Assembly (NCBI RefSeq): GCF_900090285.1
Contig: NZ_LT607754.1
Span: 3,684,001-3,748,000, forward strand
Length of the DNA: 64,000 nucleotides
From: Micromonospora inositola
GTDB lineage: Bacteria; Actinomycetota; Actinomycetes; Mycobacteriales; Micromonosporaceae
Direction: 5' to 3'
A program made the translations under genes and the position numbers. Shown one piece after another: positions 59,324 through 64,000 of the stretch; the first letter of the stretch is position 1, and every line of letters starts with the position of its first letter. Under the pieces are notes generated by a model, which was not told the origin of the DNA, did no database searches, and saw nothing but the letters and a program-made list of their open reading frames with translations.

Positions 59324-59339
59324 TAGAACGAGTGTTCGA
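59324..59339 (+). promoter_or_regulatory. LexA-type SOS box upstream of the mutasome
   Basis: TAGAACGAGTGTTCGA matches the actinobacterial LexA consensus TCGAAC-N4-GTTCGA with one mismatch. It lies 315 bases upstream of the HEPN gene, next to a TACTGT -10-like hexamer at 59309-59314. DNA-damage induction of the downstream operon is inferred. Confidence 0.7.
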
Positions 59340-59654: not shown

Positions 59655-60104
59655 ATGCCGACCAGTCCGGCTCAGGCACCGATGGTGCCGGCGCACGTGC
59701 TGCCGCACCGCACCCCGGCCCAGCTGCTCGCGGTGGCCCGCCACGGGCTGGCCGAGGCCGCCCGGACCCGTCCCGACGGCCTCCGGTACGCCGCCGCCCA
59801 CCTCTCGGCGCTGCGCGCCGCCGCCGCCCTGCTCGCCGCCCGGGCCCGCCCCGCGCCCACCCGCCGCAACCGGATCACCAGCGTCTGGGTCCTGCTCTCC
59901 AGCGTCGCCCCCGAGCTCGACGAGTGGGCCCGCTACTTCGCCGCCGGCGCCGGCAAGCGGGCCGCCGCCGAGGCCGGCATCCCCCGGGTGGTCACCGCCC
60001 GGGAGGCCGACGACCTGCTCCGCGCCGCCGAGCAGTTCGTGACGGTGGTGGAGACCGCGCTCGACCTGGCGCACCAACCGGCGCTCGACGGGCTCGCCGC
60101 CTGA
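59655..60104 (+). CDS. SAV_6107-family HEPN-domain protein
   Basis: The 149-residue helical protein has the HEPN-like pattern of the SAV_6107 family: LLAVARHGLAEAARTRPDGLRYAAAHLSALRAAAALL, then RRNRITSVWVLLSSVAPEL. Members neighbour imuA-imuB-dnaE2 operons in actinobacteria. A good GGAGGAG ribosome site precedes the ATG at 59655. Its role in the mutasome is unknown. Confidence 0.85.
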   Translation: MPTSPAQAPMVPAHVLPHRTPAQLLAVARHGLAEAARTRPDGLRYAAAHLSALRAAAALLAARARPAPTRRNRITSVWVLLSSVAPELDEWARYFAAGAGKRAAAEAGIPRVVTAREADDLLRAAEQFVTVVETALDLAHQPALDGLAA

Positions 60105-61067: not shown

Positions 61068-62708
61068 ATGAGCGGTGCGCCGGTGCGGACGCTGCTGCTC
61101 TGGTGCCCGGACTGGCCGGTCCTCGCCGCCGAGATCGTCGACGGGGTGCCCGCCACCGACCCCGTCGCGGTGCTGCACGCCAACCGGGTGGTCGCCTGCT
61201 CCGAGCGGGCCCGCGCCGAAGGGGTGCGCCGGGGGCTGCGCAGGCGCGAGGCGCAGGGGCGCTGCCCGCAGCTCACCGTCGTCGAGTACGACCCCGGCCG
61301 GGACGCCCGGGCGTTCGAGCCGGTGGTCGCCGCCGTCGAGGAGGTGGCCGCCGGGGTCGAGGTGGTCCGCCCCGGGGCCTGCGCGCTGGCGGCCCGGGGC
61401 CCGAGCCGTTACCTCGGCGGTGAGGAGGCGGCGGCCGAGCGGATCGTCGAGCACGTCGCCCAGTCCTGCGCGGTGGAGAGCCAGGTCGGCATCGCCGACG
61501 GGGTCTTCGCCGCCGGGCTGGCCGCCCGGGACGGGCGGATCGTGCCGCCCGGCGGGACGCCGGAGTTCCTGGCCGCCCTGCCGGTCGAGGCGCTCGGCCG
61601 CCCGGCCCTGGCCGACCTGCTGCGCCGGCTGGGGGTGCGTACCCTCGGGGGCTTCGCCGCGCTGCCCGCCGGCGACGTGCTGGCCCGGTTCGGCTTCGAC
61701 GGGGCGCTGGCCCACCGGCTCGCCGCCGGGCAGGACCACCGGCCGCTCGCCGTCCGGCAACCCCCGGCCGACCTGACCGTCACCGCCGACCACGACGAGC
61801 CGATCGACCGGGTCGACGCCGCGGCGTTCGCCGCCCGGACGCTGGCCGAGCAACTGCACGAGCGGCTCGCCGCGTACGGGCTGGCCTGCACCCGGCTCGG
61901 CATCGAGGCGGTCACCGCGCACGGTCAGGAGCTGCACCGGGTCTGGCGGCACGACGGCCTGCTGACCGCCGGGGCCATCGCCGACCGGGTGCGCTGGCAG
62001 TTGGACGGCTGGCTCTCCGGCAGCACCGGCCGGGGCGGCGCCCGTCCGACCCGGCCGACCGCCGGGATCATCCGGCTGCGGCTCGTGCCGGACGGGGTGC
62101 TCGCCCAGGCCGGCCTGCAACCCGGGCTGTGGGGGGAGACCGGCGAGGAGCGGGAGCGGGCGCACCGCGCGTTGAGCCGGGTGCAGGGCATCCTCGGCCC
62201 CGAGGCGGTGGTCACCGCCGTGCTCGGCGGCGGCCGCTCCCCGGCCGACCAGACACGGCTGGTGCCGTGGGGCGATGAACGGCTCCCCGCCCGTCCCGGC
62301 CCGCCGGCGCTGTCGGACGAGCCGGCCACGGCTGGCGCCGCCGGCACCGACCGGGCTGCCGGTCGGGGTGGTGGTGGCACCCCGCCCTGGCCCGGCCGGC
62401 TCCCGCCGCCCGCACCGGCCGTGGTGCTGCCCAGTCCGCTCGCCGCCACCGTGCACGACGCCGCCGGCGAGCCGGTCGTGGTCAGCGCGCGCCTGGCGGT
62501 GAGCGCCGCGCCGGCCCGGCTCACCGTGGGTACGGCCCGCCCGGCGGAGATCGTCGGCTGGGCCGGTCCGTGGCCGGTGGACGAGCGCTGGTGGGCGCCG
62601 GCCGAGGCCCGGCGGCGGGCCCGGTTCCAGGTCTGCCTCGCCGACGGTGCCGCCCTGCTGCTGGCCGTCGAGGCCGGCCAGTGGCTGGTGGAGGCGATCT
62701 ATGACTGA
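61068..62708 (+). CDS. imuB: ImuB-type Y-family DNA polymerase homologue
   Basis: The 546-residue protein has a Y-family polymerase core with LLLWCPDWPVLAAE, AVEEVAAGVEVVRPGACALAARG and LRRLGVRTLGGFAALP, then an extended C-terminal part. The usual catalytic acidic DE pair of Y-family polymerases is not visible, as in other ImuB proteins that act as clamp-binding adaptors for DnaE2. GGGGAGGG precedes the ATG at 61068. It belongs to the SOS-type operon with the HEPN and ImuA-like genes. Confidence 0.88.
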   Translation: MSGAPVRTLLLWCPDWPVLAAEIVDGVPATDPVAVLHANRVVACSERARAEGVRRGLRRREAQGRCPQLTVVEYDPGRDARAFEPVVAAVEEVAAGVEVVRPGACALAARGPSRYLGGEEAAAERIVEHVAQSCAVESQVGIADGVFAAGLAARDGRIVPPGGTPEFLAALPVEALGRPALADLLRRLGVRTLGGFAALPAGDVLARFGFDGALAHRLAAGQDHRPLAVRQPPADLTVTADHDEPIDRVDAAAFAARTLAEQLHERLAAYGLACTRLGIEAVTAHGQELHRVWRHDGLLTAGAIADRVRWQLDGWLSGSTGRGGARPTRPTAGIIRLRLVPDGVLAQAGLQPGLWGETGEERERAHRALSRVQGILGPEAVVTAVLGGGRSPADQTRLVPWGDERLPARPGPPALSDEPATAGAAGTDRAAGRGGGGTPPWPGRLPPPAPAVVLPSPLAATVHDAAGEPVVVSARLAVSAAPARLTVGTARPAEIVGWAGPWPVDERWWAPAEARRRARFQVCLADGAALLLAVEAGQWLVEAIYD

Positions 62709-62774
62709 GCCGGTCCGGCCCGGCACGGGCGTGCGGGTCCGGCTGGCTCGCTCCGCGCCGGGAGCGGGTGTGCC

Positions 62775-62828
62775 GGTGAGCGATATGCCTGTCAGGCATA
62801 TATATGACTCACAGGTATATCGCTCACC
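62775..62828. repeat. Nested tandem palindromes between imuB and dnaE2
   Basis: A 54-bp AT-rich element is flanked by GGTGAGCG (62775-62782) and its exact complement CGCTCACC (62821-62828). Inside are two abutting 19-mers: ATATGCCTGTCAGGCATAT (62783-62801), a perfect palindrome about one base, and ATATGACTCACAGGTATAT (62802-62820), 15 of 19 identical to it. It lies 103 bases before dnaE2. Confidence 0.8.
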
Positions 62829-62930
62829 GACCCTCCCGTCCTCGGCCGAGCCGCGGCGGGTCAGTCGAGAGCGGGGATGCGGGAACGGGTGTCCGCCGCG
62901 GCCCGCGGTCGCTCCACCCGGAGCGGCCCG

Positions 62931-64000
62931 ATGAGCTTCCACAATCCCAACCTGCCCTGGTCCGAGCTGGAACGCGTGCTCTCCGGGCGACCCGGCGACG
63001 GCCGGTCCGGTGGCGGCCGGTCGGGCGACGGCGGGCGGCCACGGGGCGGACGGTCGCGGGACGGGCGGTCACGGGACGAGCGGCACCTGCACGTGGTGGA
63101 TCCCCTCGCCGTGGACGCCGACGGCGGGGACTCCCCGGCCTGGAGCCGCAAGCGGCAGCACTACGAGGCCCCCGAGCTGCCCCGCCCGGACGGCGCGGTG
63201 CCCTACGCCGAGCTGCACGCGCACACCAACTTCAGCTTCCTCGACGGGGCCAGCCACCCGGAGGAGCTGGCCGAGGAGGCCGCCCGGCTGGGGCTCACCG
63301 CGCTCGCCGTCACCGACCACGACGGCTTCTACGGGGTGGTCCGCTTCGCCGAGGCGGCCCGCGCGCTGCATCTGCCGACCATCTTCGGCGCCGAACTCTC
63401 CCTCGGGCTGCCCGGCCCGCAGAACGGCGAACCCGACCCGCTCGGCCGGCACCTGCTGGTGCTCGCCCACGGCCACGAGGGGTACGCCCGGCTGGCCGCC
63501 ACCATCTCCCGCGCCCAGCTGCGCGGCGGCGAGAAGGGCCGCCCGGTCTACGGCGAGCTGGAGGAGGTCGCCGCCGAGCTGCGCGACCACGTGCTGGTGC
63601 TCACCGGCTGCCGCAAGGGGCACGTGCCGGGCGCGCTGCTCACCGAGGGCGTCGACGCGGCGGCCCGGGAGCTGGACCGGCTCACCGCGCTCTTCGGCGC
63701 GGAGACGGTGGCGGTGGAGCTGGCCGACCACGGCCACCCGGTCGACGCCGATCGCAACGACGCCCTCGCCGAGCTGGCCGCGTCCGCCGGGCTGCCGACC
63801 GTGGCCACCAACAACGTGCACTACGCCACCCCGGCCCGGCGGCGGCTGGCCACCACCGTGGCCGCGGTGCGGGCCCGGCGGAGCCTCGACGAGATCGACG
63901 GCTGGCTGCCCGCCGCGGCCACCGCCCACCTGCGCAGCGGCGCGGAGATGGCGACCCGGTTCGGCGCGTACCCGGGGGCGGTGGCCCGGGCCGCCGAGTT
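62931..64000 (+). CDS. dnaE2: Error-prone DNA polymerase III alpha subunit (DnaE2), 5' part
   Basis: The frame is open to the window edge. The start MSFHNPNLPWSELERVLSG is typical of DnaE2. A low-complexity Arg/Gly/Ser/Asp stretch at about residues 20-52 precedes a PHP domain with YAELHAHTNFSFLDGAS, TALAVTDHDGFYGVVRF and IFGAELSL. The polymerase core is beyond the window. Together with ImuB it performs damage-induced mutagenic synthesis. Only a weak GGAG precedes the ATG at 62931. Confidence 0.88.
   Translation, partial: MSFHNPNLPWSELERVLSGRPGDGRSGGGRSGDGGRPRGGRSRDGRSRDERHLHVVDPLAVDADGGDSPAWSRKRQHYEAPELPRPDGAVPYAELHAHTNFSFLDGASHPEELAEEAARLGLTALAVTDHDGFYGVVRFAEAARALHLPTIFGAELSLGLPGPQNGEPDPLGRHLLVLAHGHEGYARLAATISRAQLRGGEKGRPVYGELEEVAAELRDHVLVLTGCRKGHVPGALLTEGVDAAARELDRLTALFGAETVAVELADHGHPVDADRNDALAELAASAGLPTVATNNVHYATPARRRLATTVAAVRARRSLDEIDGWLPAAATAHLRSGAEMATRFGAYPGAVARAAE

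Follow-up and report, generated by a model that had tools for sequence, protein, structure and literature searches.

The nested palindrome that lies between imuB and dnaE2 in Micromonospora inositola is one copy of a dispersed palindromic repeat family of Micromonospora and relatives. We propose that a co-inherited protein, with an XRE-type HTH and a nucleotidyltransferase-like fold, probably binds this REPIN-like repeat of Micromonosporaceae. The binding is predicted from sequence patterns, and the copy next to dnaE2 would be an orphan of the system. No description of the family was found in the literature that we searched, most subscription journals lying outside this search.

The palindrome and its neighbors

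The window analyzed here, a stretch of 64,000 nucleotides from the 6.7 Mb single-contig genome of M. inositola (G000), carries imuB (61068..62708, + strand) with a PF00817 IMS domain and, cut by the window end, dnaE2 (62931..64000, + strand). The imuB stop lies 65 nt before the palindrome. The dnaE2 start called by a codon-usage gene finder lies about 100 nt past it, with an alternative in-frame ATG further upstream at 62877. The N-terminal part of dnaE2 that falls into the window contains a PHP domain, and its top NCBIfam match is error-prone DNA polymerase. We identified imuA' by profile NF058630; immediately before it sits a gene (59682-60104) with a SAV_6107-like HEPN domain (PF18726).

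The element occupies 62774..62829 as a single near-palindrome, a feature missing from the initial annotation, with 25 of 28 positions paired about a center at 62801/62802 and an extension to 45-nt arms at 80% pairing. The nested tandem palindrome which that annotation did describe is present. Unit 1 (62783..62801, ATATGCCTG-T-CAGGCATAT) is a perfect 19-bp palindrome about 62792 and the predicted site of one dimer; unit 2 (62802..62820), the predicted site of a second dimer, abuts it with three mismatches to the pattern. The enclosing inverted repeat forms the left (CGGTGAGCG, 62774..62782) and right (CGCTCACCG, 62821..62829) feet of the hairpin, and measures 9 bp instead of the reported 8, one base longer on each side. 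A search with the 19-mer at up to three mismatches returned two matches in the window and none in 100 dinucleotide shuffles, and folding of the DNA hairpin at 62770-62835 gives -23.5 kcal/mol compared to a shuffle mean of -6.8 (z = -7.9). Rfam returned ten matches at E ≤ 1, all under the gathering scores and mostly to microRNA families, and a plasmid collection contained no match to the element. A scan of 62600-63000 for intrinsic terminators (GC-rich stem plus U run) found 0 sites.

As initially stated, the element is not a LexA box: no sequence of the GAAC-N4-GTTC type occurs within 62774-62829 at up to two mismatches. A LexA-like site with one mismatch (AGAACGAGTGTTCG, 59325-59338) is found upstream of the imuA'-imuB operon; the window holds 80 LexA-like sites at up to two mismatches compared to 38 expected, and this match is weak alone. 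A degenerate LexA-like sequence (GAACGGGTGTCC, 62883-62894, one mismatch) lies between the element and dnaE2. We rejected it as a conserved site, since a one-mismatch match occurs in 0 of the 21 other imuB-dnaE2 spacers.

A dispersed family at the 3' ends of genes

The initial annotation had seen only this copy, which is true within the window. The genome-wide motif search that it proposed turned up additional copies built of the same two units, and a first covariance model, built from five copies in G000, recovers six in this genome; one of them has diverged, with compensated changes. Of 24 sampled congeners, the same model was positive in 15, which have between 2 and 76 rows (one copy normally being counted on both strands), and gave 0 in the other nine; it returned one weak match in 16 genomes of other genera. 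These genome-wide copies bear out the alternative reading as a dispersed repeat, and the proposed control specific to dnaE2 is contradicted by a family that has six copies here and as many as 76 two-strand rows in a congener. The exact core pattern occurs in at least 120 stretches of named genomes. Among the 80 listed, 76 belong to Micromonospora (many species); the remaining four, from Treponema, Flavobacteriales, Algoriphagus and Pseudochrobactrum, lack the outer arms and were set aside as chance matches. A second covariance model, made from 42 copies, was positive in 89 of 300 genomes sampled from Micromonosporaceae, in 8 of 44 genera; at most 19 candidates were scored per genome here, so that rows are not copy numbers.

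We described the anatomy of the family on 141 copies, leaving out L020 (indel), L148 (a duplicate of L139) and L204 (too close to an end). The copies are not independent, 61 of them belonging to 20 ortholog groups; at ortholog sites they are kept in the same place in up to eight genomes. The conserved core covers 24 bp on either side of the center (48 bp). One arm reads GAGCG, half-site ATRCCT, three variable spacer positions and half-site AGKCAT; the other arm mirrors it. The core thus contains two abutting dyads of about 19 bp that can also fold as one hairpin. Among the near-invariant letters, A-17, T-16, C-13, G-7, A-4 and T-3 are symmetric about the center of each 19-bp unit, as would be expected for a dimer site, and C-5 is the exception to this dyad symmetry.

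Pair -19/+19 is complementary in 84% of copies compared to 27% expected, and local pairs show little covariation. Across 42 copies, 16 of the 22 pairs in the whole hairpin have changed on both sides, which amounts to 146 such cells compared to 44 after shuffling; none of 500 shuffles reaches the score. The local 19-bp hairpins give 26 cells compared to 18 shuffled, with a score that one of 500 shuffles reaches. Beside the whole hairpin this excess is small, and we rejected two independent 19-bp hairpins as the covarying unit. Changes on one side that keep the pair are rare (11 cells, 42 copies), and sense-direction reading of 49 tandem copies gives 12 G-U and 11 A-C mismatches. Since one-sided changes are rare and both kinds of mismatch are equally frequent, pairing looks to be maintained at the DNA level, by protein symmetry, a cruciform or template switching between the arms, and not as RNA. 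The close orthologs L161 and L183 differ by a clean double change, and flipped loops occur between the close orthologs L053/L097, L187/L218 and L122/L215. The 10 nt that follow the stem have a mean T fraction of 0.22 (49 tandem copies), or about 2 T.

Gene context was taken from a codon-usage gene finder, with gaps of 100 bp or more as background. All 143 copies lie outside called genes; convergent gaps hold 66 of 126 typed copies compared to 19 of 268 background gaps. Set 1 (68 copies) comprises 32 convergent, 28 tandem, 6 divergent and 2 untyped copies (background 10/56/44), and set 2 (75 copies from named genomes) comprises 34, 22, 4 and 15 (background 9/83/66). The copies in tandem gaps are closer to the upstream stop in 24 of 28 cases in set 1 and 19 of 22 in set 2. 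A further 22 copies fetched from other genera divide into 8 convergent, 10 tandem, 1 divergent and 3 untyped. This location at gene ends is that of REPs and terminators, not of operators. Most copies lie away from promoters, contrary to what would be expected of a plain regulator site. A likely role at these 3' ends is that of a bidirectional terminator or boundary.

The imuB-dnaE2 region was obtained from 23 of 25 genomes, and 22 spacers were compared, leaving out G005. Family A, as we call the present family, occupies this spacer in G000, G010, G013, G008 and G012 and, in degenerate form, in G020; with named species included, a family-A copy is held in the gap of eight genomes. In this comparison of relatives, which had been suggested as a check, other spacers are short or contain another hairpin. 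An unrelated 48-bp hairpin, family B (GATCTTGGWA...TWCCAAGATC; spacer copies L089, L091, L093, L095, L099 and L101, others L287-L302), fills 7 of the 22 (G018, G023, G019, G003, G011, G006 and G009). Seven of the 10 genomes tested contain family B, with 4 to 67 copies each, and G000, G008 and G013 have 0. It too lies at gene 3' ends: of 15 typed copies, 7 are convergent, 6 tandem and 2 divergent. A third long inverted repeat, CTACGAAC.TGATGACG ... CGTCATCA.GTTCGT, is found in the spacer of G022 and G009 (L083, L088). Short spacers of 35-80 nt occur in G017, G024, G016, G002, G007, G021 and G004, and no hairpin was seen in the spacer of G015, where the end of imuB is only guessed. None of the imuB-dnaE2 spacers compared shows a target duplication or a clean empty site.

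The gap downstream of leuS was retrieved from all 25 genomes and scored in 24, leaving out G001 (L262-L286). Eighteen of the 24 have a hairpin that beats all 12 shuffles and six have none by the same measure. Five of these hairpins are family A (G000, G014, G008, G004 and G024) and 13 are of other sequence, which suggests turnover of terminator-like hairpins. In gaps free of the element, hairpins occur in 15 of 27 convergent, 35 of 157 tandem and 8 of 83 divergent cases. Since hairpins of other sequence occur in the same gaps, the family palindromes share a niche with other terminator-like hairpins.

A co-inherited XRE-type protein and genome dialects

An XRE-type HTH gene, whose neighbors we take to be ung and tsaB/tsaD homologues, lies downstream of four of the six divergent copies in set 1 (L109, L123, L129 and L138) and also of L139, which sits at a contig end. 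The encoded protein of 240 aa combines an XRE-type HTH (HTH_3, HTH_31) with a nucleotidyltransferase-like C-terminal fold. By fold comparison the HTH is closest to C proteins that bind as two dimers, among others, and the C-terminus is closest to nucleotidyltransferases. The protein has 222 homologs, and among the 120 listed all named ones are from Micromonospora. A family dyad is found up to 420 nt upstream of the XRE gene match in 19 of 24 loci, with diverged letters in G005 and G071 and as an imperfect dyad in G059 and G010; it is absent in the other five (G013, G017, G144, G158 and G000).

We searched for this protein in 35 genomes. An ortholog, whole or split, is present in 15 of 25 Micromonospora, and the element occurs in 14 of these 15 compared to 2 of the 10 without (p = 0.0003). 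A sample of 300 Micromonosporaceae searched at E ≤ 1e-30, which we take as the same draw as the element sample since the listed handles agree (most negatives are unlisted), contains the protein in 86 and the element in 89 genomes: both in 75, the protein only in 11, the element only in 14 and neither in 200. Within Micromonospora the element occurs in 62 of 63 protein-positive genomes. Another 11 have the element and lack the protein; they have fewer rows (median 6 compared to 19), and only 3 of the 11 reach ten or more rows compared to 57 of the 62 protein-positive, element-bearing genomes. Row-rich genomes lacking the protein are G016, G104 and G183, with 15, 17 and 19 rows. Outside Micromonospora, 13 genomes contain both, 10 the protein only and 3 the element only. 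Fragments (G121, G143, G189) and the broken gene of G000 are counted among the protein-positives, and the Fisher values overstate the association because genomes and loci are related.

In G000 the XRE gene (C1:2727690-2728255, minus strand) is broken: its HTH part reads in one frame and its C-terminal part in another, and the 3-kb stretch showed no family dyad. In G010 a frame change splits the gene, and the imperfect dyad lies before it. A possible decay of pairing in genomes that lack an intact XRE gene was set aside as too weak a signal (p = 0.03 from eight copies, one with an indel). Since the gene is broken in G000, the imuB-dnaE2 element would most simply be an orphan relic site, and regulation through the cognate protein is unlikely in this genome now.

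Letter choice at -19, -18 and -15 is genome-dependent (z = 10.4, 13.6 and 13.2 relative to shuffled labels), in 117 copies with 22 labels, among which the possible double labels G020/M. avicenniae and G004/M. acroterricola are counted apart. These dialect letters are shared at 0.73 within a genome compared to 0.57 at the same site across genomes. The foot letters show the opposite trend, with 0.57 within a genome and 0.74 at the same site, so that the foot follows the site. For the dialect letters alone the bootstrap interval of the difference (-0.04 to 0.37) includes zero; the contrast between dialect letters and foot is 0.32 (interval 0.064 to 0.551). In other genera, for copies picked from the best matches, the dialect shift extends to all half-sites: G073 and G099 have ATTCC in both half-sites (40 of 48 arms), G118 has ATGCC twice (8 of 8), G041 has outer ATRCC and inner ATGAC (19 of 20), and G144 and G158 have outer ATGCC and inner ATGCA (26 of 30). 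Identity within each of nine genomes is 84-99% for recognition letters, 49-78% for feet, 45-100% for spacers and 32-48% for flanks. Recent copying is possible in G041 and G144 because there the spacer is constant as well. The recognition-helix groups of the protein match the dialect groups, and shared ancestry accounts for part of this match.

The two-site operator for a dimeric regulator that the initial annotation envisaged gains strong indirect support from the dyad-symmetric letters, from half-sites that shift together and from a co-inherited XRE-type HTH protein with a copy upstream of its own gene in most loci. That annotation named PadR/MarR-type regulators as candidates; the partner identified here is of XRE type. 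The copies lie at gene 3' ends, however, and not at promoters, and an operator alone does not explain the covariation of the whole hairpin.

Interpretation and known systems

By analogy with C.Esp1396I, we infer that the abutting dyads may each hold one XRE dimer. The copy that precedes the XRE gene would autoregulate that gene, and the other copies could serve at gene ends as bidirectional hairpin terminators, protein-bound roadblocks or boundaries, while persisting as semi-selfish repeats. Alternatively, copies at gene ends may merely survive there, selection removing those elsewhere. Even as an orphan, the imuB-dnaE2 copy of G000 may still function as a hairpin. More tentatively, and with some doubt on our side, this could be a new kind of repeat population in which nested palindromes at gene ends are maintained, and perhaps copied, by a self-regulating XRE-HTH/nucleotidyltransferase-fold protein that reads the dialect of its genome. 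Such a population would resemble REPIN/RAYT with wholly different proteins, and loss of the protein would leave orphans.

Could the palindromes instead be protein-independent bidirectional hairpin terminators that spread by duplication, linked to the XRE protein through shared ancestry and one copy near its gene? The 3'-end and convergent location suits this explanation, as do the mostly non-family hairpins behind leuS, the replacement by family B between imuB and dnaE2, and Streptomyces terminators, which the accessible part of PMC12207403 describes as long, stable, covarying and U-poor. We nevertheless consider it unlikely, given conserved letters with dyad symmetry, dialects that reach all half-sites, strong co-occurrence with one protein, no G-U excess and no match to a U-tract terminator. 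A non-autonomous mobile element, MITE-like or REPIN-like, with an unrecognized transposase and the XRE protein as a mere repressor, would explain the dispersed and patchy distribution (0 to 76 rows per congener) and the constant spacers of G041 and G144 that suggest recent copying. We find it very improbable: Y1 transposases are absent from 10 of 15 element-bearing congeners, the compared spacers show neither a target duplication nor a clean empty site, and copies stay at one site in up to eight genomes. Nor did a recurrent mobile gene emerge beside the copies, where 610 flanking proteins form 422 clusters and no transposase was recognized by eye in clusters of four or more. That the element is a dedicated operator separating dnaE2 control from the SOS operon can hardly be maintained. 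Its retention in eight imuB-dnaE2 spacers and the co-directional genes would fit, but the family sits at many unrelated loci, other spacers among the 22 are short or carry another hairpin, and no conserved LexA-like site follows the element.

The binding-site reading that we prefer invites comparison with REPs. According to the accessible text of PMC3733652, these palindromic units form inverted pairs, are scattered downstream of genes and in the gaps of convergent ORFs, and have an excess of G-U pairs in their stems. REPIN copy number is higher where the cognate RAYT is present, as stated in the part of PMC8049555 available to us. Our family is similar in its imperfect palindromes, which form inverted pairs dispersed over gene 3' ends, in its larger number of rows where the partner gene is present and in the copy beside that gene. 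It differs by lacking a GTAG or CGTC tag at the palindrome foot (consensus GAGCG, 141 copies), by lacking a G-U excess, by mostly lacking a Y1 transposase and by having an XRE-HTH protein as partner. The Y1 transposase PF01797 is found in 9 of 25 genomes (G000, G002, G006, G009, G010, G011, G014, G016 and G020). Among the 15 element-bearing congeners, five have it (G002, G010, G014, G016 and G020) and ten do not (G004, G005, G007, G008, G012, G013, G019, G021, G023 and G024), which led us to reject a RAYT/Y1 transposase as the partner. Because the RAYT and tag tests fail, the family is REPIN-like in behavior and we do not class it as REPIN.

Operators of C proteins (C.Esp1396I, known here from entry titles) likewise lie upstream of the regulator's own gene, as in our 19 loci. 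However, other XRE proteins tie with C proteins in the fold comparison, the partner here carries a nucleotidyltransferase-like C-terminus, and there are dozens of dispersed gene-end sites whose arms covary as one hairpin. HipB/HigA-type antitoxin regulators have a similar HTH domain by profile, below the NCBIfam cut-offs, whereas the present protein has 240 aa with an extra folded domain. Terminators of GC-rich actinobacteria share long stable stems with few U after them, downstream of stops (accessible part of PMC12207403). Unlike these, the family has a conserved sequence, near-perfect palindromes and protein-linked dialects, and about 2 T in the first 10 nt past the stem compared to the 3-4 that the same part of this source gives for Streptomyces.

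With these results a lone palindrome becomes a testable system of one uncharacterized regulator and a ready set of sites. Site letters that vary with the genome and with the recognition helix constitute a natural specificity experiment. For the mutasome, a potential roadblock separates imuB from dnaE2 in some Micromonospora species only. More generally, a regulator bound at gene ends could end or insulate transcription, and the family suggests that no RAYT transposase is needed for a REPIN-like repeat population to exist.
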